Shown: piece by piece, positions 21,200-64,000 of the stretch
How positions within the stretch are numbered: position 1 is the first letter of the stretch
Layout: every line of letters starts with the position of its first letter
Assembly: GCA_018389105.1 (NCBI GenBank)
Contig: JACATO010000596.1
Location: forward strand, 558,001 to 622,000
Direction of reading: 5' to 3'
Length of the DNA stretch: 64,000 nt
From: Nautilus pompilius
Lineage: Eukaryota; Mollusca; Cephalopoda; Nautilida; Nautilidae
Position numbers and translations under genes: made by a program
Notes under the pieces: generated by a model
Told to the model about the DNA's origin: nothing
The model's database searches: none
What the model saw: the letters and a program-made list of their open reading frames with translations, nothing else

Positions 21200-21403
21200 A
21201 TTATTGTATTCCTCCTCCTCCTCCTCCTCCATCACGGAGTCGTGCTCATCGGATGCACTTCTTTTCTTCGCGCATATGCAAGCCATAGCTATACTTTCGG
21301 TGGTTGTTTCGTAGACGTAAACCCCGCCGAGACAGGCGCCAGTTCTCTCGAAATCCAGAAGCCAGGGATAGACTGCTGGCACCGCTCCTCGCGTCTGTTC
21401 TCA
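21200..21403 (-). pseudogene. IL-17-like C-terminal remnant
   Basis: On the minus strand the frame after an in-frame TGA (21401-21403) reads RTGACLGGVYVY, then ESIAMACICAKKR. This parallels the last part of the intact IL-17-like gene in this window (RTDGCVDGLYVY, ERIVVACTCATKR). It keeps the last three cysteines of the IL-17 fold (C, then CxC). The core that should precede it (CPW, RxP and CxCxxC) is absent from this frame. A neighbouring frame upstream has only weak hints (NTSCP, QRCE). Downstream the frame passes through a (CTC)n-coded Glu run into the AAT microsatellite with no natural stop. It is best read as a broken gene copy. A real exon with an unusual acceptor (GAGAACAG just upstream) is less likely. 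A non-LTR element ends 560 bp upstream of it. Confidence 0.65.
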
Positions 21404-22666: not shown

Positions 22667-23080
22667 TCATCTGATGGGGGAAGATTTGGCCATTCGTCCG
22701 CTTCGAGGAGAGATATGGTGTGGAGACGGGAAGCGAGGGTTGGAAGTCGAGCCTCCGTGAGGACTGCGCCAGCTGGAGTGGTGCGGACGTGGCCCTTTCG
22801 AGCTTGGCGATGTTAAGGGCGTCCAGCCCGGCCCCGCGTATTCAGCTAAGCTGCGTAGCGTCGCGATGTAGACTTGTCTCAGCTCTCCGGGATGCCGCCC
22901 CCGGGAGGGGCCCCCTAACACACGGAGGATATGTGACCGGCGATGACAGAGCTTATGGACATGTTTGTCGATCATGGCGTACACCCAGGACGGTCGGATG
23001 AGGGACACCGGCGATAGAGACGTTTGGCTGCGATGTTGACCCTGTATTTCCAAGGCTGGCTCACCTTTGGAGGTATTCAA
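22667..23080 (-). pseudogene. RT C-terminal (thumb) region, frameshifted
   Basis: This continues the reverse transcriptase in a different frame from the main RT frame. It begins NTSKGEPALEI, the usual segment after the catalytic box (family form LNxxKxExxxF), and later reads LCHRRSHILRVLGGPSRGRHPGELRQVYIATLRSLAEYAGPGWTP in pieces characteristic of this group (RVLGGxxxGxxPxxLRxVYxAxVRSxxEYA). After about residue 90 similarity fades into a Ser/Pro-rich reading, so a second shift is likely. It confirms the element is inactive. Confidence 0.75.
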
Positions 23081-23966
23081 GGTGAGCCTCGCTCCATGCC
23101 GCCCCCTCTTTATCGACTGCTCTTTGGATGGATTGGGCCACCTCTGTTTTGTTACGACCGCTACACGCGATCACTAAGTCGTCTGCGTACGCACTGACGT
23201 GTGTAGACTCCTCAAATTCACCCAGCAGGCTGTTGATATAGATAGTGAAGAGCATGGGTGAGAGGACTGACCCTTGTGGTAAGCCCTCCTTGAAGGTACG
23301 CGAGCGGCCCTTTGAGTCATTGATTCTGACCCTTGCAGTGCGGTTGGTGAACCATGCCGTCACCCATTCAATGAAGCGCAGGGGGACACCGAGCTCTGAC
23401 ATCCGTATTAGCAGGCCTGCGCGCCAGACTCGGTCATACGCTCTGCTGAAGTCGAAGAAGGCAGCAACAGTGCGTTTGCGTTGTGTCGACTGGAACCCGT
23501 CGGTGATGAACTGTGACAATCTGAGACATTGGTCCGTCGTGCTTCGTCCCTTCCGGAACCCAGCCCGCCAGAGGCTAAACAGGTTGTTATCTTCCAGCCA
23601 CCAAGACAACCGGTTCCCGATCATGCGCTCCATCAGCTTGCATATTGTCGAAGTCAGGGCGATTGGGCGGTAGCTTCCCACATCTGCGGGGGTCCTTCCC
23701 CCTTTTTTTAGAAACGGAAGGATCGTCGCTGTACGCCACGTCTGTGGGCACCAGTGTTCGCTCCAGCTGTGGCTGGGGATCGAGAGCAGGAGTGTATGAG
23801 CAGGCGGCCCGGCCGGGTGAAGCCATCTTCCATTTGCAGTGCGCTTACTACGAACGGTCGGTCGAAGCTGTCCAACTGCCTTCCTCGAAGTTCTATCACT
23901 CTTCCGTCCGCTGATGATGGCGGCATACTCTCGAATAATTCGCGCGATCATCAGTGTGGACAGCAT
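23061..23966 (-). CDS. Reverse transcriptase domain of the non-LTR element
   Basis: This is a 301-codon open frame. Residues 1-60 are divergent and may include a shifted segment. From about residue 70 it follows the non-LTR reverse transcriptase: WCPQTWRTATILPFLKKGG (72-90), SYRPIALTSTICKLMERMI (98-116), RAGFRKGRSTTDQ (134-146), FFDFSRAYDRVW (170-181, with the first catalytic Asp), GLPQGSVLSPMLF (228-240) and AYADDLVIACSG (259-270, the catalytic YADD box). It would copy the element RNA into DNA at a nicked target site. All active-site residues are intact although the rest of the element is broken, so insertion was probably fairly recent. The domain continues in another frame beyond 23061, which shows that a frameshift ends this reading. 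Confidence 0.88.
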   Translation of the reverse strand: MLSTLMIARIIREYAAIISGRKSDRTSRKAVGQLRPTVRSKRTANGRWLHPAGPPAHTLLLSIPSHSWSEHWCPQTWRTATILPFLKKGGRTPADVGSYRPIALTSTICKLMERMIGNRLSWWLEDNNLFSLWRAGFRKGRSTTDQCLRLSQFITDGFQSTQRKRTVAAFFDFSRAYDRVWRAGLLIRMSELGVPLRFIEWVTAWFTNRTARVRINDSKGRSRTFKEGLPQGSVLSPMLFTIYINSLLGEFEESTHVSAYADDLVIACSGRNKTEVAQSIQRAVDKEGAAWSEAHLEYLQR

Positions 23967-24699
23967 CCTTGCAGTTTAACGCTTTCCCCTTGTCTTGGAC
24001 TTCTTTGCCGGTTAGAGATTTAACCACCGCCCCCCCGCGCTCGTCTCTTGTCTTTCGTTTCGGATATTCTATCCAAATGCTTCCTCCACGCCTCGCGTTT
24101 GGCCCCATTCGTCTCCCCGACCTCCGCTTTCGACCCCTGCACCAATTCCTTGCGATTATACCTGATGTCACGTCGAAGTCTGTTACGCCTTTTAATCAAC
24201 TCTTTTAATTGCGCGTTCATCCAGGGTGTCTCCCGCTTTGATTGGTATAGCAGCCGCTTCCGCCTGCTTAAGGATACGGACGAAGGGTTCGTGTTACTGA
24301 TCCGTTATCAAACCATAATTTTACTTCCAGCTGCCCCGTCTGTTTTCTGCCCGACCGGCTGTAGTAGTCTCACCGCCTTCTGTACCACCAAGGTTGTTCT
24401 GTTTTTCTTTTAATGGCTGATATTCGTGGTTCGATGAACAAAATTTAATTATTTTTTTTTCTCTTTAATTACTGCTATTAAAAGAATCAAGAGACCACCA
24501 CCTTTACATGGCACTTACATTACCTTAAATATAAAAGTCAATGTCACGTACATACAGATGATGTAAGAGAAAAAAATGCAGTAAAGATGACTTCTCTTTT
24601 ACTGGATGGCTCACCGTTACAGTACCCACCCGTCGAACGACTGAGTTTCTCTGCGGTTAGTTCAGTCTGCCGTCTAAAAACTGACAAAAAAAATATTAT

Positions 24700-31401: not shown

Positions 31402-32414
31402 ATGGCCAAGATGGCGGTAAGTGAGGGGTTTATCGGGAACTAATGCATGCGCACTAATAATGATCTTTCTTAAAGGAAGCGATGACATTAGGAAAGAAAA
31501 CTTATATATCGCATCGCTTTTATACCATGTCATTGTTCTTGTTGTTTTATGCAAACTGCTCAATTTGAAACAAGAAAGATGACTTAATAGTAATTAAATA
31601 GCATATACGAGATTTTGGATACCTGCGTGTGAGGACATCTTTGTTGCATTTATAATATTTAGAAAAAACCTTTCATTGAACTGATAATTATATTTTAGAC
31701 AGTGTAAGAAAAAAGAGATAAGATTAATGCTGTTAACAGTTAGTGACCTGACCCGGCCACAGATTGTTAGCTTCGGTTCGGTTTTGTTTTCCGATTTAAA
31801 AAAAAAACAAACTCTTTAGTCTCCTGGCGATCCACGGTTCGGTTCTTCTTTTCCAGATGCAGGTTTTCAAGTTGTCTGTCTTTCTCACGGCATTCCAGGC
31901 GACGAGCCTTCGAGGATTCCCCGTGTACGAACTGTGCCGGTCGCCCTTCGATCTTCGAGGCCGCTACCAGAGGATTCTGAAGTTAACAGGAAACAGAAAT
32001 CTCCTCCTCTCAGCCAACTCCGCTAACAGGACGAACAGCGAGGAGACAGACATCGCTGCGCTGCCGTCCCTCGGTGAGGTCTCGCCGTCTTCCGTCAACA
32101 CGGACTATCCGATCAACCGCCGCGCCGCCTGTCCGTGGGACTTCAAGGTCACCCGTGACGCCACCCGGTTCCCGACCATCATGCACGAGGCTCGCTGCCT
32201 GTGTGATGAATGCTTCAACTCCAGCGGCAAGCACCGGTGCGAGCCAGTCCACCGCTACGTTCACGTGCTACGTCGAACCGACGGCTGCGTTGACGGCCTT
32301 TACGTCTATAAGGCGGCAGTGGAAAGAATCGTGGTGGCCTGCACGTGCGCGACGAAGAGGGTGCTCCGTCCTTTAGAAGGCCCTGATGTAGAGTTGCTAC
32401 TCGCTGTCAAGTAG
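31402..32414 (+). CDS. Interleukin-17-like secreted cytokine (two exons)
   Basis: Coding exon 1 is 31402-31416 (MAKMA), starting in a near-perfect Kozak context (CACCACCATGG) and ending at the donor GCG|GTAAGTG. Exon 2 is 31857-32414, after the acceptor TTCTTTTCCAG, and ends at TAG. The phase-0 join gives 190 residues. The N-terminus (MAKMAMQVFKLSVFLTAFQ) is a plausible signal peptide. In exon 2 numbering the mature part has the IL-17 pattern: ACPWDF (C92), RFP (104-106), EARCLCDEC (C114, C116, C119), C128, then TDGC (C144) and VACTCATKR (C162, C164). The IL-17 family forms cystine-knot-like dimers that act on IL-17 receptors in innate immunity. Length is in the normal range and one intron near the start is common in molluscan members. 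It could start at the exon-2 ATG instead, but exon 1 fits better. Confidence 0.9.
31857..32414 (+). CDS. Exon 2 of the IL-17-like gene (mature cytokine domain)
   Basis: This single exon carries 185 codons and the whole IL-17 fold. The segment between the signal peptide and CPW (residues 20-90) is a low-conservation pro-region with a possible N-glycosylation site (NRT, near residue 57). A second N-glycosylation site, NSS, lies near 121. The exon is GC-rich against an AT-rich background, as coding sequence should be. The closest relative in the window is the broken minus-strand copy at 21.2-21.4 kb. A GTAAGT just after the stop (near 32427) could be the donor of a 3'-UTR intron. Confidence 0.9.
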   Translation: MQVFKLSVFLTAFQATSLRGFPVYELCRSPFDLRGRYQRILKLTGNRNLLLSANSANRTNSEETDIAALPSLGEVSPSSVNTDYPINRRAACPWDFKVTRDATRFPTIMHEARCLCDECFNSSGKHRCEPVHRYVHVLRRTDGCVDGLYVYKAAVERIVVACTCATKRVLRPLEGPDVELLLAVK

Positions 32415-49532: not shown

Positions 49533-50792
49533 TTAGGTTGTTGCAAAGGTTTTGTCGGGTTTTTTACCGCAACAACAAGACTCCATTTCATTGCTGAACG
49601 TGAAGTTTATTAATCAAAGTAAGTTCCATTACAATCAATACACTTCTACCAACGAGTCACAAGTGCATTTATACCATTTTGAAAAAATATTGGAAAGCAG
49701 TTTCATTTGCTACTTGGTTGGAGAAAGATTTCATACAGAGGAAGCTGTCGAGGTGTTTGAAAAGGTGGTAGTCTGTGGGAGAAAGGTCTGGTGAATAGGC
49801 TGGGTGAGGGAGAACTTCGTACCCCAACCGGTTCAGTTTCTGAAGAGCCACTTTTGCAACAAGAGGACGAGCACTGACCCGGAGCAGGACGGGGCCTCTT
49901 CGATTCACCAATACCATGTGTCATTGGGAGAGTTTCCGATGAACAGTGTTTAATTCACGACATTACTTTTCAGCTGTGATGGTTTCACCAGGTTGCAAGT
50001 GGTTATAGTGGATGACACCAGTTGCAGTCAACCAGACAGTGACCATGACCTTCTTTGGGTGGGAAGCTGAGTTTTGGAATCTGGTTAGGCGCCTTGTCTC
50101 TGTTGAGCCACTGTGGCGATTGTTTGTGAACATCGTAAAGGATCTATTTTTCATCACACGTAATGATGATTCAGTCAACAAATGAGTCGTTTTTGTCTCT
50201 CTTATGACAAGCGAAGAGCAGATCTCCAATCGACGATTTTGTTGTTGTTCATTCAACTGGTGAGGCACCCACTTGTCGAGCTTTCTCACCTGGCCGATTG
50301 CGTCAAGATGCCGGAAACAGTTGCAGTGCTCTCGTCAAGCTCTCCAGCAATTTCTCGCACTGCTTTTCTTGGATGTGCTTCAACTGATGTTTCAGACGGT
50401 CGTCATCACAGCTGGAAGGACGTCCGCTATGTTCCTTATCTTCGAGGCTCACATCTGACTGAAACTTTCAAACCACCGTTGTACTGTGTACTCATATGCT
50501 GTGTCCTCGCCCCATGCCTGCTTAATGTTACGAGTTGCCTCGCTCGCTTTGTGGCCTGGTTTGAACTCATGAAGCAAAATGGCACGAAAACTTTTCTATC
50601 CAAGCTTCACTTAGAACCCTGGAACAAATATCCATTTTATGCTTTTTAAAAAGGTAGGTTTGCATAATCTCTGCAAAAGCACAGGCTACAAAACGATATA
50701 TAACTTATCTACATACACCTTCACAAGCATGAAAAAAATGAACCCCAAATTAACATGACATAAAAACTGACAAAACTTTTGTAACGACCTGA
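49533..50792 (-). mobile_element. Full-length, inactivated mariner element
   Basis: The 1260-bp unit is flanked by TA on both sides (49531-49532 and 50793-50794). The left end reads TTAGGTTGTTGCAAAGGTTT and continues TGTCGGGTTTTTTACC. The right end, inverted, reads TCAGGTCGTTACAAAAGTTT and continues TGTCAGTTTTTATG. These match mariner inverted repeats (TTAGGTTGGTGCAAAAGT...). The minus strand encodes a mariner (SETMAR/Hsmar-like) transposase in broken frames. Both ends are intact and the size is right, so the whole insertion is present although the enzyme is dead. Confidence 0.95.
49669..50640 (-). pseudogene. Mariner transposase pseudogene
   Basis: Recognisable pieces on the minus strand are KLDKWVPHQLNEQQQNRRLE (about 50230-50289), CDEK followed by a stop at 50144-50146 where Trp is expected, QWLNRDKAPN in another frame, HPKKVMVTVW and GVIHYNHLQPGETITAEK (to 49963). 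Then come RRGPVLLRVSARPLVAK and LGYEVLPHPAYSPDLSPTDY (49750-49917). The family form of the second catalytic block is LLHDNARPHVAK. Here HDN has become RVS, so the second catalytic Asp is lost. The third Asp (SPDL) remains. There are several frameshifts. The N-terminal DNA-binding half (50300-50640) is poorly readable. Confidence 0.88.
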
Positions 50793-53039: not shown

Positions 53040-53637
53040 GAGGAGGCGGCAAGATGGAGTCCGGGGGCCAGGGCTGAAGAAAGTGGTGGCGAATTTTCCT
53101 TCTTTCTCTCTTAGGCAGCAGCCGGCCAGCGAAGCGAGGTGGCGGCGGCGGCGGCGAGGGGTCAGGCTCGTCCCCCTTCCCCGTGTAAGTAGTATATTGA
53201 CGCTTGCGCTGGAGGGGAGGGAAGGAAGGAAGGAAGGAAGAAGCAGCTTTCACTAGACACGGTGGTTTCTCGCTCTCCGCTGTTTTCCGGTAGAAGCTGC
53301 TGCTGCCCGCCAACAACCAGAGGCTGAGCAGACAGACGTCAGTCAGTCAGGACCTCTGCGGCGCGCGCGCGACGACTTCAGAAAGGGGCAGACGGAGCGA
53401 TTTTATCTGATTATAATATATACACACACACATATATATATGTGTGTAAAAAAGAAATATATATATATTATTTATTTATTTATTTTTGTGGTGCTGTGTG
53501 AGTAGCTGGGAGTTCGCCGGCAGACGGGGACGGACGGGAATGATGGCGTCGTCCGCATTCGGAGGAGTGTAACACAAAACCGCAGCGTTGTTCGGCCTGG
53601 TCCGTGGTCCGGAGGGTCCAGCCTGGACAAAAACAAC
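53040..53637 (+). promoter_or_regulatory. GC-rich promoter and 5'-UTR of the EMI-domain gene
   Basis: Immediately upstream of the signal-peptide exon the sequence turns CpG-rich (GGCGGCGGCGGCGGCGAGG at about 53140, GCGGCGCGCGCGCGACGAC at about 53357). A TA/CA-rich insert (53410-53475) interrupts it, followed by a second GC-rich part that probably is 5'-UTR. No clear TATA box was seen. A CpG-rich TATA-less promoter is likely. The exact start site cannot be read from sequence. Confidence 0.5.
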
Positions 53638-53759
53638 ATGTCGGCCCAGTGGCGAGGGGGATGGTGGTGGTACCCGTCTGGAGTTCTTCTCGTCGTCGTC
53701 GTCGTCTTGGCAGTTCTGAGGGACAGTCAGGGAGACCCCCAGCTCGCACAGGTTCGCGG
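53638..53759 (+). CDS. Exon 1 of an EMI-domain secreted protein: signal peptide
   Basis: The ATG at 53638 (context AACAACATG) opens 40 codons plus two bases, ending at the donor CGCGG|GTAAGTAG. The peptide is a clear secretion signal: short N-terminus MSAQWRGGWWWYPSG, hydrophobic core VLLVVVVVLAVL and then a polar RDSQGDPQLAQVR that is likely just past the cleavage site. The Val run is coded by a (GTC)n repeat. The exon ends in phase 2, which matches the start phase of the EMI exon 7.3 kb downstream (61106), so the two are called as one gene. The gene runs out of the right edge of the window. Confidence 0.75.
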
Positions 53760-55590
53760 GTAAGTAGAAGATACCTACCGCCTTACTCTTTTCGCGTCCT
53801 GCCCCCTCAGGGGACTGACCGGGAGCCGGTGGGTGGCTTGGATGATTTCTCCTCGCCGTAGACAGACGAGAGAGTCTTGTGACGAAGGGGAGGGAGGGAG
53901 ACCGGCAGACAGGCAGGCGGACATAGAGGCTGTCCGGACTGATGATGATGATAATATTAATCTTAGAATGGAGAGATTTTTTTTGCTAAACATGGTGTTT
54001 GCCTTCCGGTCCGGCAAGAAGTTGTTAGAAGCCCCTGCTCTGGGGGCTGGGAGGGGGAGAGAGAGAGAGGGCGGGAAAATGAACCAAACGCTGATAACAG
54101 CTGCACGTGCTGATGGCTACCGGTCGTCTGCGCGGCCGGCCGTTCTGGCTTCAGACGCCGTTTCGACCACCCACCACCCGTCTCCCGAAACTTCTGACGG
54201 GAAATGATGATTAACCGGGGCGGGGCCCCACAGGTAAGGAAGGGCCACCACCAGCCCAGTGGGTTCTATAGTCGAATGTCGGCGGGCTCGAGACCAGGAG
54301 AGGGAGAGACGCCGGGCGAGGCCGCCGACATGACGCTGGCTCTGAGGAGACCCTTAAGGTCCACAAAAGATGAAGACTAGCGACGTAGAGCGGTGGGGGG
54401 GGGGCGGTGTCCATTATTAGTTGTTAACTTTGTTTTATCTTCGTGCTATTCACCGACACTAACAAGTTCTCGATCTGAGACAGGAAGGGAAACATCTGCG
54501 AACCCCTCCTTCCCCCCCCACCCTTTCGTTTAACCCTGGCGAGTCAGCAGCCACGACGGGAAGGAAGCCGGGGCCCCTTCTCACCCCTTCTCCGAAACAG
54601 GAAACAAAGCTGCTGTTGTTGTTGGCTGGAATTGTTAGACGAGATGGTAAAAGTAGAATTCTTAAAATACGGAAAGTACCCCGTGCACCAGCGAAGGTAT
54701 TCTTCTTACTGGTTCATTGACAGACAGACAGACAGACACCTGTCCCCGTAGACCGACCGACAGAGCAGCAATCAATGCCCAGAGCTGATAGACACCCGTC
54801 GATCCCGTCTAGCGTCGGTGCCCGCGGGCCGATTCTAAATCCTATTGTTTCCTGTCACTCAAACAGTCAAGAAGCCCGAGTCTTAACCTGGATGAACCTT
54901 GCGATGTACGGAATGCGAAGTTATCTTCTGCCTGCCAACAGTTAAGGAAATGCTCACACAATGGTTCGTTTTGGCAGCAGAACCGACCGACTCGGCTCCG
55001 GCAGTTTCCAGTTGAATTAACTGTAATAGATGAGCTATGACCGACGTCACGTGATGATCTGACCTTACGCCATCGATTCTATCCTTGCTATACCAGTAAT
55101 CAGGAATTACTGGTACTGCGACAACTTGCTTCGGTCTTCCATACTGGACTAATTAGATTCAGTTTCTTTCGTATTATTATTATTATTATTATTAAAGTGT
55201 GGAACAATTTTAAAATTTGTACATCATCGCTCGGAAAGGGGAGCAAGAAAGCCAACGGCAGTAAATCGGAATGGAACTAGAGGCTGTACGATCGATCGGT
55301 TATCGGACCCTAACTCCGACAAGTAAATTCCTAATTCGATCAGTAAAATTCTAATCGTCTTCGTAATTGGCCACGCAACTGGCCCAGGAATAACAGACAT
55401 TCAAATAAGATACGAATCGGTGAGTGTGATGTGAGCAGCAGACACCTTCCCTGATTAATGTACTCTCAGGATATAAATCCAAGGACCAATTTAGCCCACC
55501 TGGGTAAAAACGAGAGAAGAGGACTGGAGGGTTTAATCTGCACTGCAAAATGTTCCTCATTTCTCAGAAAAGGAGGCAGACGGCTTACTG

Positions 55591-55621
55591 CGGTGTGTGT
55601 GTGTGTGTGTGTGGGGGGGGG
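55591..55621. repeat. (GT)n plus G-run
   Basis: About ten GT units run into a run of nine to ten G. Read directly, in intron 1 of the EMI-domain gene. Confidence 0.9.
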
Positions 55622-58600
55622 GCAAAAATTGAAAAAAAAAAACAAAGAAACGAGACCATTCAAAATCCAACCTGCAGATACCCGATTTCCGAAAAGACCG
55701 TACAGATCGTGACGACAGGGGTGGAGGAGTTCGAGAGCAGGCCATGGGTACGGCGCCAAGCCCTGGTCTGAGGGCAGACTCTGCTCTCGTTATTTCCAGG
55801 GCGATGCACAACTTTCGGCGACGGCTGTACAACATCTATAAATAGTTCAACAAGAAAAGATGGCTCAAAGTTCGAACTTTACAGGGTTAATGTAGAAAGA
55901 TTTTGTAAAAAAAACAAAAAAAACCCGTTTTAGTGATAAATGACCCAAACAAAACCGAAAAAAAAAAAAAAAAGAGAGAGAACCCTAACTCTCCCAGAAT
56001 TACATCCACACAGAGCGACTGGGACCTGGTTGTTTGTTATAAGCCATTGCTGGGATACAGTCGCTTAAGTTCTGCACACACTGACCAACAACGGCTGTGT
56101 TTTTGTTTGCTTGTTGTTTTTTTCTTCCTGTTTCCATCATTTAATTACTCATTTTTCTCCACAAAAATTTTTTATCACTGTTGTTGTCCTTTTTTTTATT
56201 TATTTATTTTAACCTGCCTGTAGTCGGAGTCGAGCAGCAGACCCCGAGACCGACACCGGAATTTTTTTCTCCAGAACCTGAACTAAAGCGTGAACGTTAA
56301 CATTATTCAATATCAATACCGAAAGTTCGCTGGACACCGAGGTCAGAGCATTGCCCAGATAATACCGACGGGGAAAGCCCGTGGCTACGTATGGCGGCGG
56401 GGTTGCCCTTCTACGTTTAGACTGACAACAAGTGGCGGTATAGTGAAATAATCGTAAAAGTACTATTTTTCTGGGCGGACACTTTTCCGGAATGGGGAGA
56501 GTGGTGTATCACGTCTTTGTTAAATGCTAGAATGATAATAATGCGTGACTGGAAGCTGTTTCCCGTTCCGCTGCCGGTTTTGCATATTCCCGTTTTTAGT
56601 TTTGTCCGGCGCTGATGACTTGCGGCGACAGTCTGAATACACCCAAAGGGGGATAATTCATTGTTGTTGTTGTTTTTTTAATTTAAAAAAAATGCCCTCT
56701 TGCCCATTTGTAATTAACATTTAATTTAAATGACATTTTTAAGCGCATTTAAAAGAAAGAAAGAAAAGAGAAGCCTCAATCAGTGTTAAAAAGAAGTTCT
56801 GATGTATCCACAGAGCGGCAAACTTAGTTAATTGTTCCTATTTATGACGTCATATCGGTGTTAAATTAGCAGGTCCCCGTCAAACTCGGAGTGCCGGGCT
56901 GTTTTAAAAGGCGAGTAAATAAAATGGCCGCGCGCGTATGTTTTCTCCTTCCTGCTACAGAGCCCAGCCCCCCCCTCCCTCCCGCCTGTTTCTCGACCGA
57001 CAAAACAGAAAAAGGAAAACAGATCGCGTCCAGACGTTTTAGACTTTTTTTTTTTAAAAAAAGACGGTTTGAAAAAGAAGAAAATTCTATAACCTGACGA
57101 AGTTGGTCAACTGTGACAAGTGTGAAAAATTATACCAATAAACGTCCGCCCGTTCGCGTCTCTGCTGGAGAGATAATTTGATGATATTTGCTTCGTTTAA
57201 TCCGGTTAGGACCAGAAGGGGGGTCTCCTTAAGACGAAATGCGGGGAGCTGGGGACGGCAGGTCCTTCTGTTTGTGCTTAGCGGTGTGTGAGGAAAAAAA
57301 GACATCTGCCTAGTTCATCGCACTAATGCACATCGGGTCTTTGCGGCGGGAAAGAGGCGGAGGGGACCCTTCTGTGAAACTCCACGGATTCCCAATCGCT
57401 TTCTTGTCATTGTGTTTGTTGTTCTTGAACTCCGTCTTTTTACAAGACGCGTTCGTGTCTACACAATGATCTTTCTAGCGCGGTGTTGTTGTGGCATTGT
57501 GAAGAGGCAGAACCACCCACCATCATCAATCACAGCGCCTTGAATACCAGATTTACAAAATCGGCATTTAGTCGTAAGCCGAAGTCTTCGCTGCATCTTT
57601 TGTAATTTAACATAATCCACATGTCGGGACAAATATCTCTTCCTAGCAGCGCGAGTAACCAACTGTTGCTTGGGCATTGAACGGTCAGAGCTTTTATCGT
57701 ATTAAAAGTTTATAGAAGGAGACCAATGAGCACGAAAAAGACTACATCGGAATAATTTAAAGAGAAAAGCCCGTGAATAAAGAGCTCGCGCCCTCCACGC
57801 TTAAAATTTGCGGCCAGAGGTGATGCTTACTAAGCCAATCTAACTAAACCTTAAAAAAAAAACAACTTTTAATTTAAAACCGGAACTAGAGAATCCACAC
57901 TTGCGGCGCGCGAGCAGACTTCATTTTTCATTATCTTTCATTTTTTTCTCTCCCTTTGTTTATCCCGCCTCTCCGCTGCTCCACTCTCTCTGCCTGACTT
58001 ACCTCTCTCTCTCTCTCGAGTACCACTATAGATATTTACCTCCGCTGGTATTAAGCCGCATATCAATTAGCATTAATTTCCCTATTGAGGAATCCAAGCA
58101 AAATTGTTTTCGCATGATCCCCGAGACTTATAAATGCTCATGTCATTTTTAGATATGTCCAAGTATTTAATGACCACCATTACGATTTAATAAATGGCTT
58201 GGTTTCGAGCTAAGTTGCTCGATCATCAAGTGTTTTGTCGCCTTAAGTTAACAGTGGAGCATCCTTAGCCATTCTTGCTCAACACTATAATTATAGGAAT
58301 ATTTCCCGTCTGCTGCCTTGTCGATATAGATGTTCTTTTGCCTATCCCACACCTTCGCTGCGCCCCCCTTTTTTTTTGTTGTGTGTCGATAAATTTTTTT
58401 CTAAACGTTAAGTAAAGCGAAGAACCCTGAAGCAATCATCAGATAGGCGAGACACTGCGATCGCCTCTGGCTACGCTCCGGCCGTCTCTCGAACTCCTGT
58501 TTTCACCGTCTCCGCGCACCAAGGCACAATTATCTCGCTTGAAACGTGATACTGTTATCCTCGTAGGTAAAGAACTTCGCCGCGTAAACAAATGGGGAAA

Positions 58601-58939
58601 GGAAAATATCGTGGTAGATGTGATCTGCGCACTCTGGGGCTGACTGTGTACACATGTGGATTAATAGGATGACAAATATTTTCTTTAAAAAGCGATAATT
58701 TAACTCCGATGTTTAGTTTATCGTAATGGGCAAATAACGGGCGCCATTTTAATTTAGGGGTTAAGACGAACCACATAATTTATGATGCTAAGAAGTAAAA
58801 AAAAAAAAAATGTCTGCTAAATTTCATACATTGCTAAAAAAAACAAGGGTCTTTTTTTAAAAAAATGTGATCACAGCCATCTATTCAACAAATTATAATT
58901 TTTCCGCAGTAATTATGCATATTTGGAGATATTTGGGGG

Positions 58940-59110
58940 CGTTCGAATCCCTGTGAGGACAGGCTCGGTTTGATGGGCTTACCTACCTGGCATAGTTTCT
59001 TCTGGCTTTTCTTCACCTGCCAGTCCGTGGGTTCTCCCTGGTTGTCCGATATCTACCGGAGAATGTTCTGCAGGTAATTCTTTGGTAGTTTGCATCTCGA
59101 CGAACCCTCA
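58940..59110 (+). mobile_element. 5'-truncated SINE fragment
   Basis: It begins at a B-box-like GTTCGAATCC (about 58941-58951) and continues with GGCTCGGTTTG, then TGGCATAGTTTCTTCTGGC and CTGCCAGTCC. Near-matching words occur in the copies at 47160-47352 (minus) and 62350-62560 (CTCGGTTTGTACTC). The A box is missing, so the copy is truncated. It lies in intron 1 of the EMI-domain gene. Confidence 0.55.
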
Positions 59111-59158
59111 GAAGACCAAAACCAACCGTAGTAACTCATTTGATCACCAAGGATACCC

Positions 59159-59187
59159 CCCCCCCCACACACACACACACACACACC
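59159..59187. repeat. C-run plus (CA)n
   Basis: About ten C followed by ten or eleven CA units. Read directly. Confidence 0.9.
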
Positions 59188-61105
59188 TACCTCTTCTGGC
59201 TTACTGCTGTAAGACCTCCCTAGACCTCAAAAGTCAGGGCAGGTATTCGACATGAAAAGATATCTTCTACTTATTTCATTTATTAACTTTATTGTTTCTG
59301 CCGTTTAATTGTGCAACCATCAAACCTCATTCGATATCCATCTACATAGATGCTCTGTAAATAAACGATTGTTATCAGTTCACCTGTCCACCACGTAGGT
59401 TTTAATTTAGAGAAACATTGCACTGAAAACACCAAAAGTAATGCTAATGTCTGACTATGGTGTACATTTCTCGTGCATTCCCCAAAATTCCGATGCAACG
59501 ATGATAGAAAAGTGATGGGACGGATTTATCCGCGGGGTCAATAAGAGGTTATGTCATGCGGTCAAGGTTAATTTTTCTTCCACATCACCATTAAAAAGCA
59601 AGGAAGCGAAGAAAATCTTGATAGTTTATAATTACGACAAGTTACAATGGCTGATTTCCTCCTCGGTTTCCGGAAGCTAGACTGCAGATTTTAATGTTAA
59701 CGCACCGGTTTTTCCGGAAGGAAACAAGACGAAAACTTCTTGCTCATCTATTTACGGTCACATCCTTTACCGTGATTCCGTAAAGGGGGGAGGGAGGGAG
59801 TTTCTAAGCTTTTACACAAAAAACAACAACAAATGTTTTGAGTTACAGAGCTGTCACAGCTTACTTGCTTCCGCTTATCATCGTCTACATTTCCGCAGAA
59901 TAAGACAACTTCCGTTGAAAAAACAAACATGCAAAATTGTGTTTTTCTTAGTAATTTTCAAGCTAACATTTTAAAGCCCGTACTGTTAATAAAAAAAGGG
60001 TTACCCGATCATCAGATATGGGATCAACCGGATAACAGAAATCTGTCCTATTTCATACGACCTAAGAAAGTGCCCTAATTTTGATGACCCAATAAGCTCG
60101 CCCTATTTGTGAGACCTGAAAGCTTGCCCTATTTTTAAATCCCGAAATCTTTATATTAGTCCATCTGCCAAAGAATAAAAAAAACGTGTCCAGCCAGTGG
60201 AGTGATACCTAAAGACTGATTTCCTGCATGACTCGTTATTACACCAAAGGAAGGGTTTGCGGGAGGAGGGGAAAGAAAAACCGCAGGGACAATTAGTTTA
60301 AAGGCTTTTATTTATTTATATTTTTAAGCTAAATGCTTCCTCGTCTATGCAAAAACCAGATTCTCAGTAGGGGAAGGTTGTCGACTGTCGTATCTCCGTG
60401 AATGGGAAACGAAACCAACAAACAAACCCATTGGTGTCCCCACGGTTAGCCTTGAACATACTGGGGCAGACAGCGTTTAGGGTCAAGACAGGGACAAATA
60501 ACCGACGTACGTTCGTCCCAGCGAAGGCGCGGGTTTTAAAACCATTCGAGCCGTTTTACACCTCGTGAGCTAAAATCAGGGCGACAACCATCATTACACT
60601 TCCATCATATCCAACCGGAAGCAGAAAATCCATCTAGGCTGGCTGGCTCATCCCGGAGTGTCGCCAGGTCGCTCCCCGACGATTCTCCTATCTTTCATAC
60701 ACCACGAGGTTTTATTTACACACGGGAAGGGGGGGGGAGCGGTTCACGCTCGTTCTCTGGTGAATTACTGCCCCGCGCAGTCCAGGCGGGCGGAACAAGG
60801 AAGCGTGGGCAGGTGTAGGGAGGTGAAGTCCGCGTGGCGGTCGCCGAAGTATTCATACGCAAATATCTGATTAGTTATTGTTTATGTGCATTTAGTATTT
60901 TGCAGCTGAATCATAAAAAATTGATGTTCATTTCAGTTAAAGGCGCGTGAAATTCCCAGTGTTATCTATATTTTTGGTAATTTCTCTTTCAGTTATGTTC
61001 TTGTTGAGTACATTCGACTACGAAGACTTCTTCTGTCGCACTGTTTCCTGTCGGTGATTGTACAAATTAATTTGGTGTGGACATAAAAATTCTGTTGTCT
61101 TTTAG

Positions 61106-61309
61106 TCAGAATATCACTGGAATGCATCATCTGAAACTTTCCGAATCAGGTGATCATCCGTGTAACGTCATACATTTCAGCCACTGGTGCCCGTATATCC
61201 GGTCTCGCTTGAAGTCGTGCCTTGAGTTAAGCGGAACGGAGACGTACGTGACCCGGAACTGGCGCGAATGCGGCGGCAGCAGCAGCAGCTTCCGTTGTAA
61301 GGGATACAG
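61106..61309 (+). CDS. Exon 2 of the EMI-domain protein: N-terminal half of the EMI domain
   Basis: The acceptor TTGTCTTTTAG precedes 61106 and the donor ATACAG|GTAAGC follows 61309. The 204-bp exon is open in the phase set by exon 1 (GG+T) and ends in phase 2. After a glycosylation site (QNIT) and a linker, it reads HWCPYIRSRLKSCLEL, then GTETYVTRNWRECGG and FRCKGYR. This matches the first half of EMI domains in EMILIN, multimerin and EMID proteins (family form NWCxYVxTRxxSCxxxNGTxxYxQxxxxxCxW). The second half (ending WRCCPG) should be on the next exon, outside the window. EMI proteins are secreted matrix or adhesion glycoproteins that multimerise. Whether this one continues with EGF repeats, collagen or C1q modules is not visible. 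Confidence 0.78.
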
Positions 61310-61627
61310 GTAAGCACAAAGATAATCTTATTGATGTTTTAAGCTCTAAACCGTTTTTTTTTTTAATCTGCGGCGAGCTGAATTCTCACGGGAAAAGCGA
61401 TTGAAAGAACCCTTTTCAGACAAATCCCAAGGGGACAGGACCATCTTCCGGGTCATGCGCATGCCTGTGATTTTTTTCGTTTGTATTTAAACCAACGAAA
61501 CACGGTGAAAAGGTATTTCTTACGAAAACGTTCTGTTTCTGCAGTATTACGAAAATGATATATGTTTTTTTTATTTCTGAGTTTGAGATTTCTAATTGAT
61601 TTTAAAGAATATCTTAGACAGCCCCCC

Positions 61628-61631
<4 letters not shown>

Positions 61632-61705
<74 letters not shown>
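61632..61705. repeat. (CT)n microsatellite
   Basis: About 36 CT units with one CC slip. Read directly, inside intron 2 of the EMI-domain gene. Confidence 0.97.
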
Positions 61706-61706
<1 letters not shown>

Positions 61707-62349
61707 AGACATTAAAGTCTAAATAAAAGTAGTTATTTTTCTTTGATAGAATATTGTCATGTTGTTTCGATAATCGACTAAGCTAACAGCGTTGATTCCC
61801 GCTCCTTTCCTGACGTTTCAGAGTAAATATAACTCTGATGTGGCCCTTCCCCCCAAAAAAAAGAGACGGCGATTCATTTTTTGAAACTGTATTTAATGAG
61901 GGCCTATAACTGGGACCTGGTCTGATTGATCAGACCAATAACCAGGCTGCAGATGATGCATCACCGCTCTTTGAGACCTTGTGCTTTTTCCAGGAAAGAA
62001 AGTGCTGTCTGTATTAAGTTCAAGTAGATTGGCAACCGATTAAAACCGTGTATCGATTTTGTATAACACCGAACACCGTGTTAACGTGTTGCGCATAGAT
62101 TTAGTATTTGTTGGTTGGTAAGTGTAAATATGATGATGTACTTAGCTTCAGAAGACTGCTGCAACCCAGCGAGCGGATTCGTACCCCCAACGAAATTTAA
62201 CGTTTGAGCTCCTGGTCACAGAAAGTGGCTTTTTTGTCGCTGTACGTTGATTTTAATACTTGCATTTTTTTTTAAAAAATCTCAATCTTTTTGGCTTTAG
62301 AATCCACAGAATTTTTTTCTTCTTCTTTTAAAGATGGTTTACAAATATT

Positions 62350-62560
62350 CGCGAGCACCGCGGTAGTCCGGTGGTTAGTTTACTAGACTGCTAAGATTGA
62401 GGGCTCGAGTTCGAATACCAGTCGGGACCTACTCGGTTTGTACTCTCGTTCTCCTTCAGCAGCTGCCGCGTGGAGTTCCCCCACCACATTAAAAAAATAA
62501 ATAAATGAAGAGTTCTGTCTTTTACCTGCGGTGGAGATTCCACGGGTAACTCTCGATCTT
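62350..62560 (+). mobile_element. tRNA-derived SINE copy in intron 2
   Basis: The head reads GCACCGCGGTAGTCCGGTGG (A box TAGTCCGGTGG at 62364-62374), then GACTGCTAAGATTGAGGGC, and a B box GAGTTCGAATACC (about 62407-62420). It shares head and body words with the minus-strand copy at 47160-47352 (GTCCGGTGGT, CTGCTAAG, GAGGGC, CTCGGTT). It ends around an A-rich tract (ATTAAAAAAATAAATAAATG) near 62490 or soon after. Non-coding. Confidence 0.7.
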
Positions 62561-64000
62561 CCCTTTTCTAGCTAGAACCCATGACAGGGGTCCTCAGATC
62601 GTAGCAGTGGATCTCTACAAGTCCGTATCACGTGTAATTTAACCCCTACGAGTTAGTAAAAACGTTTCCGTTGGGCAACTGGTGGCTTAAATCAGATTGG
62701 CGGCATCAGTTGTTGCTTTAATGTATTTTAGAATGAATCAACGAAAAGGGGCAAGAGAGGAAGACTGCAGGATTTCGGACTCCCGCCTTTGATGTATGCA
62801 GAAGCGGTCTTTCGTGAAATGAAGTGTCGTGTCCTGACGAGTTACCAATGGATCTTCCCGTCTTGTTGTTGTGCGTCAGCTGAATTCTAGATGTCTGCGG
62901 ACGAAGACTCCTGAGGAAGAGTCCCTTGTTCAACACAAAACCTTTATACATCAAATGCAATTTAATAAGTAACTCCCTTTTTTTTCTTCTTCTTCTTCTT
63001 TCGTCTGTATACTTTCTGCTTTCGTTTCGCAAAGTAACTTTGCAGTAAACTTGAATTTTCCTCGTGGTTTGATCTCCCACCAAGGACTGCGATAATGAGT
63101 GTTATCCCCCCTTCTTCGTTTACCAGATCATCGCCAGGACGGCAGGCTTTGATTTGACTGATCAGCAGCCGTGGACACAGGTAAACAAACAGTAAAATCT
63201 CAGGTCTTTTTCAAAAAAAGTTGATCACGTTTTGAAAAAGATGACCATGAATGATGCAAAGTTCAAGGGAAGATTAACATAGGTTTACTTTAATACAGAT
63301 TAGACTGTAATAAAAATGATTGCATGTATCAGTAGACGTGAGGTTGGAAACCGTTAAATTGAAATCAGCCTGATTGGTCAAAGACTGGGATGACAGGGAT
63401 TACAGAGGGAGCCCTTCTTTTCTTAAGTTATTATACAATCTGCAAGTAGGAAAACCAACAATTTTGTCTGTTTTTCACATTTAACATAAAGTGCTATACT
63501 ATGAACAACATTGAGGGGTGGCGGGCAACTTGACCGGGAGTGAAAAGAAGACAGAATGTCATAGAGGACAGGCTAAGAAGGGTCATTCTACTGTCACCAG
63601 GACGGCTACGGCAGAATTGAAAACGCGCATAGCAACGTCCAGGTGAGACATGCGCCCGTATTCTACACTAATAGTAATTTAAATCAACGTCGTTGAAAGA
63701 GACCTATAACGGCCCGTGAAGACAACTTCGAGGAAGTTTCCAGCCGGCGAGGTCTCGGGAATAATTTGAGCCCTGCTAAGGGGATTTCCCGACCACCAGG
63801 AGACTCAGAGAAGCAGGTTTACAACGGCAGAGACTTTGTCCGGAAACCTCTTCTAAAACCCACGTCGTTGGGTAAGCGGGGCTAAAAACACAGGAAGTGC
63901 ACCACTGAGCAGCGGAAAACTGTCCTCTCCACCGACAGGGACAGGAGGCAAATAAACCGAAACTCCATTGTTCCTACTGTCAAACATCATCATGAAGGGG

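Follow-up and report, generated by a model that had tools for sequence, protein, structure and literature searches.

Among the proteins that possess an EMI domain, receptors of the CED-1/MEGF/Nimrod type are characterized by EGF-like repeats, and the human EMID1 and COL26A1 proteins, each about 440 amino acids long, by a CxxC word right after the EMI domain. Seven cysteines are given as the norm for the domain itself, and the EMID1/collagen XXVI (EMU) family is outlined as EMI domain, two-part Gly-X-Y region and C-terminal non-collagen part, with no C1q domain in that outline (PMC13326518). The same source describes EMILINs and multimerins with a long coiled coil and a C1q domain, the latter lacking in EMILIN-3 (PMC13326518). 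For mouse EMID1, a secreted protein, deposition on the matrix is reported (PMC8361151). Echinoderms are credited with one collagen XXVI gene (PMC10381214), and a triple-helical protein with an EMI domain is mentioned for a sea cucumber (PMC7599334). Hence, the family is already known in invertebrates, and the gene described here adds a member; the echinoderm owners of collagen XXVI are deuterostomes, however, whereas the present gene comes from a mollusc, Nautilus pompilius. No molluscan or other lophotrochozoan collagen XXVI was found by title or opening among the papers listed in a non-exhaustive literature search, and no EMI terms were found in PMC12549020.

Our analysis started from a window, i.e. 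a whole stretch of 64,000 nucleotides, that corresponds to C573:558001-622000 (contig C573 of an assembly with 2,558 contigs and 727.6 Mb; window position equals C573 position minus 558000), and included the 120 kb to its right. A preliminary description of the window had claimed that its right end holds the 5' end of a gene for a secreted EMI-domain protein, whose class – EMILIN, multimerin or EMID – the downstream architecture would decide. The spliced protein, with a signal peptide and a Pfam EMI domain of 52.1 bits, supports the claim, and the architecture decides for EMID1/collagen XXVI: collagen is present, and C1q and EGF domains are absent. The combination of an EMI domain with collagen stretches and without C1q or EGF indicates the collagen XXVI/EMID1 type rather than an EMILIN or multimerin. 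Judged from sequence, the locus is very probably an intact gene that encodes a secreted EMI-collagen of this EMU type; the protein is most like EMID1/collagen XXVI in its architecture and motifs, on which the family assignment is based.

Coding exons of the EMI-collagen gene and the introns that begin in the window (plain numbers are window positions; C573 numbers are contig positions).
Feature	Position	Strand	Details
Exon 1, coding part	53638-53759 (C573:611638-611759)	+	ATG, 40 codons + GG (2 nt), phase 2 out, then GTAAGT
Intron 1	53760-61105	+	7,346 bp, GTAAGT ... TTTTAG
Exon 2	61106-61309 (C573:619106-619309)	+	TTTTAG|T ... CAG|GTAAGC; linker with N-glycosylation sequon and first EMI half
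Intron 2, first part	61310..64000	+	19,293 bp in all, continues past the right edge of the window
Exon 3	C573:638603-638700	+	second EMI half; frame ends in WRCCPGFYGAQC; WRCCPG; in phase with exon 2
Exon 4	C573:639660-639724	+	ECFNCTKLKEIENRLESLENRR
Exon 5	C573:642319-642652	+	linker with two Cys, collagen stretch
Exon 6	C573:644175-644227	+	start of tail helix
Exon 7	C573:644681-644798	+	tail helix
Exon 8	C573:645153-645178	+	last codons and TAA; stop at 645178

The gene model consists of eight exons with 1,020 nt including the stop codon, and encodes 339 amino acids; all seven junctions are in phase, and there are no internal stops. The proposed union of a signal-peptide exon with an EMI half-domain exon across a GG|T junction (53759 to 61106) is confirmed at the level of the sequence, and the exon with a CCPG-like motif that had been predicted further downstream was found 19.3 kb away, in phase and with the word WRCCPG. 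Splice sites were ranked with our own generic weight matrix against all GT or AG sites in a 42-kb stretch. Donors reach at least 98.2% in all seven introns, and acceptors range from 87.1% to 99.6% (90.5% for exon 6). The good splice signals ascribed earlier to both of the first exons are thus upheld for their donors (99.7% for exon 1, 99.8% for exon 2), but the exon-2 acceptor, at the lower end of the range, is only fair. With an acceptor score of 0 and a donor score of 3 as thresholds, no extra in-phase exon candidates occur in introns 1 and 3-7. At the same low thresholds intron 2 contains four; any of these would interrupt the EMI domain, which matches its profile without a break when they are left out. 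The open frame at C573:640667 begins with an acceptor-like sequence; no usable donor was visible by eye, and the frame was rejected as an exon. Besides exon 5, no further collagen exon was detected in the three plus-strand frames of the right-hand 120 kb (at least four Gly-X-Y triplets in a row).

In the spliced protein, the Pfam EMI domain extends over residues 67-136 (E 1.1e-13, profile positions 2-69 of 69, cut-off 25). The two halves contribute unequally: exon 3 alone obtains 40.1 bits, so that exon 2 accounts for about 12 bits of the total, and neither exon 2 alone nor exons 1 and 2 together give an EMI match, the latter pair yielding only a DUF at E 0.28. The preliminary description was to be abandoned if the exon gave no EMI hit; this is literally the outcome for exon 2 and for exons 1 and 2, and it is reversed when exon 3 is added. 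Of the words in exon 2 that had suggested the domain, the one read as NGTETY-like is present in the form SGTETY, not NGTETY. All seven EMI cysteines occur in the expected order (residues 69, 79, 96, 105, 130, 131 and 139; positions assigned by eye), the first four in the half encoded by exon 2.

A search of the whole genome with the EMI profile returned eight matches at E up to 10, four of them over the cut-off; exon 3 is the best of the eight (40.1 bits, E 4.1e-7), and the copy number of the EMI-collagen gene is based on this family search. Of the three others over the cut-off, two are half-domains on contig C233 and one lies on C308; a match on C1617 is just below. Their domains end in DCCPGW (C233), TCCSGW (C1617) and KCCHGW (C308), and by eye they look like the CED-1/MEGF/Nimrod type. 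For the Nautilus protein itself such an identity was rejected: in the CED-1/MEGF type, EGF repeats follow the EMI domain, whereas the Pfam scan found no EGF here.

The order of domains is signal peptide, EMI, CxxC with a short helix, 18 Gly-X-Y triplets, and C-terminal helix. The EMI domain is followed by ECFNCTKL, which contains the CxxC, by a short predicted helix that shows no heptad signal (shuffle P 0.22), and by the two-cysteine linker. Pfam Collagen matches in two stretches above the cut-off (33 bits, E 5.2e-8). Two collagen stretches are a feature of the EMU family and are present here, though very short: a block of eight triplets (GEQ...) is separated by a 19-residue gap from one of six (GAP...), which after a 2-residue break is followed by one of four (GPP...). 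In COL26A1 and EMID1 of vertebrates, the same succession of EMI domain, two-part Gly-X-Y region and C-terminal non-collagen part without C1q is found; what sets the Nautilus protein apart is that its collagen part is limited to 8 + 6 + 4 triplets in a single exon, within 339 amino acids in total. Among the human collagens and collagen-like proteins of one survey, the shortest single pattern comprises 10 triplets, in ficolin-3 (PMC13138384); the longest unbroken block here, with eight, is below that. The tail of about 73 residues is helix-like, with a modest heptad signal (shuffle P 0.026 over 46 residues, 0.036 over 58 residues); it is a candidate counterpart of the conserved C-terminal domain of the EMU family. 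Because the collagen stretch is so short, trimerisation may rest on this C-terminal helix, and the triple helix alone may be weak.

Four N-glycosylation sequons are present in the protein. In the Pfam scan at E up to 1, four other families appeared, all below the cut-off and all on the helical tail; C1q and EGF families were not among the matches. A search of PDB sequences gave one match by chance (E 2), and NCBIfam gave only bacterial collagen-like proteins, far below the cut-off.

What has to be weighed against the EMU reading is, above all, a protein of the EMILIN/multimerin type, the family named first in the preliminary description, in which the EMI domain is combined with a long coiled coil and, at the C-terminus, C1q. 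The position of the EMI domain near the N-terminus and its WRCCPG end would fit, and such an end is also found in EMILINs. The seven-cysteine EMI domain is indeed common to both, but the long coiled coil and C1q domain are absent from the Nautilus protein: the frame stops after 339 amino acids, a collagen stretch is present, the tail measures about 73 residues, Pfam detects no C1q, and introns 3-7 offer no extra in-phase exon candidate that could supply one. We regard this type as very improbable. Still less credible is a decayed or chance set of exon-like pieces, i.e. a pseudogene. Transposon and mitochondrial debris in the window and the genome could be taken as a hint in this direction; against it stand eight consecutive in-phase exons without stops or frameshifts, two Pfam domains over their cut-offs, and the retention of every EMI cysteine.

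Of these readings, the one that deserves somewhat more attention accepts the downstream EMI-collagen gene and places its usual first exon elsewhere in the 5' region. Intron 1 spans 7.3 kb and the exon-2 acceptor ranks at only 87.1%, which would both be in line with such an arrangement. We nevertheless consider it unlikely, since exon 1 at 53638 combines a strong donor with an in-frame TAG upstream (53503-53505) and a good start context with A at -3. The peptide of this exon has a hydrophobic core that spans roughly residues 15-27 (Kyte-Doolittle hydropathy, averaged over 11 residues, reaching 3.87), by which the N-terminal secretion signal of the EMU family is present. Moreover, a scan for start exons (an ATG, a hydrophobic leader, a good donor and the required phase; thresholds fixed after exon 1 had been seen) returned exon 1 as the single candidate in 21.1 kb, and none in any of six controls, namely the reverse strand of this stretch and five stretches of 21.1 kb elsewhere, of which one shares 2.4 kb with the first. 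The CpG content near exon 1 is ordinary for the window. A ten-codon uORF with two ATGs (53540-53572), in another frame, precedes the start codon.

The EMI-collagen gene is flanked by two plus-strand IL-17 frames, one at window positions 31905-32378 (65.1 bits) and one at C573:660899-661351 (54 bits), with about 37% identity between the two in the part that matches. An IL-17-like fragment at 21260-21352 on the minus strand (tblastn E 1e-5), which has no IL-17 Pfam match and runs into simple repeats, is probably a remnant. The window also contains, on the minus strand, a reverse transcriptase (23064-23975, 122.5 bits) and a partial DDE transposase (49966-50334, Transposase_1, 36.5 bits). A common 243-bp repeat is found both at 63709-63951 and in intron 5 (C573:643265-643506; L004 1265-1506), the two copies being 99.2% identical. 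COX1 has 117 matches in the genome, spread over many contigs; read in the standard code, almost all of them contain stops, which suggests many mitochondrial insertions. At one locus (L024), pieces of COX3, ND2, COX1 and COX2 follow in that order by eye when table 5 is used for reading, an arrangement known from several molluscs, cephalopods among them.

The motif C1XXXX[S/T]X is described as the site at which FUT10/11 O-fucosylate MMRN1; MMRN2 and EMID1 have equivalent sites, and human EMID1 is reported to be O-fucosylated by FUT10/11 (PMC11949838). The Nautilus protein contains this motif at the first EMI cysteine (CPYIRSR, residues 69-75, with Ser74 as the putative acceptor position). The motif alone is weak, because C....[ST] follows three of the protein's 12 cysteines. 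On the side of the enzymes, the genome comprises 20 GT10 loci, two of which carry a sequence taken as a putative FUT10/11 mark, FYGTD in L041 (contig C22) and FYGTE in L026 (contig C2048), as judged by motif matching. The ordinary motif [FIV]HH[RW][ED] is found in none of the 20, so that variants of it may be present in the other GT10 loci. By motif, two FUT10/11-like enzymes thus appear to be encoded alongside the putative substrate, which they presumably meet. The FYGTE locus, on the minus strand, has a 441-amino-acid open GT10 frame with no intron in the part seen; it is perhaps a retrocopy, the FYGTD gene on C22 (L041, L042) looking as if it had several exons.

Taken as a model, the EMI-collagen chain would be exported cotranslationally, and its EMI domain would be disulfide-bonded and probably O-fucosylated on Ser74 in the ER by FUT10/11-like enzymes, a modification that would serve to check its folding. 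A trimer would then form via the C-terminal helix together with the short triple helix, as the collagen stretch and the helical tail suggest, and would be deposited in the extracellular matrix, with its EMI domains making the contacts to other matrix proteins. Secretion and matrix deposition are proposed because of the signal peptide and the likeness to mouse EMID1. In its furthest-reaching form – a protostome collagen XXVI that has shrunk to a near-minimal collagen, with a trimer set by the C-terminal helix and an EMI domain fucosylated by FUT10/11-type enzymes – the model is tentative, and we consider it possible rather than probable.

The Nautilus gene represents a compact invertebrate member of the family, in which the EMI cysteines, the interrupted collagen and, it seems, a helical tail are kept, and from which it appears that other parts can shrink. 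Such a compact EMI-collagen would be a small substrate for asking whether O-fucosylation of EMI domains by FUT10/11-type enzymes is ancient. If the furthest-reaching form of the model is true, the enzyme-substrate pair of FUT10/11 and the EMI domain would predate the split between protostomes and deuterostomes.
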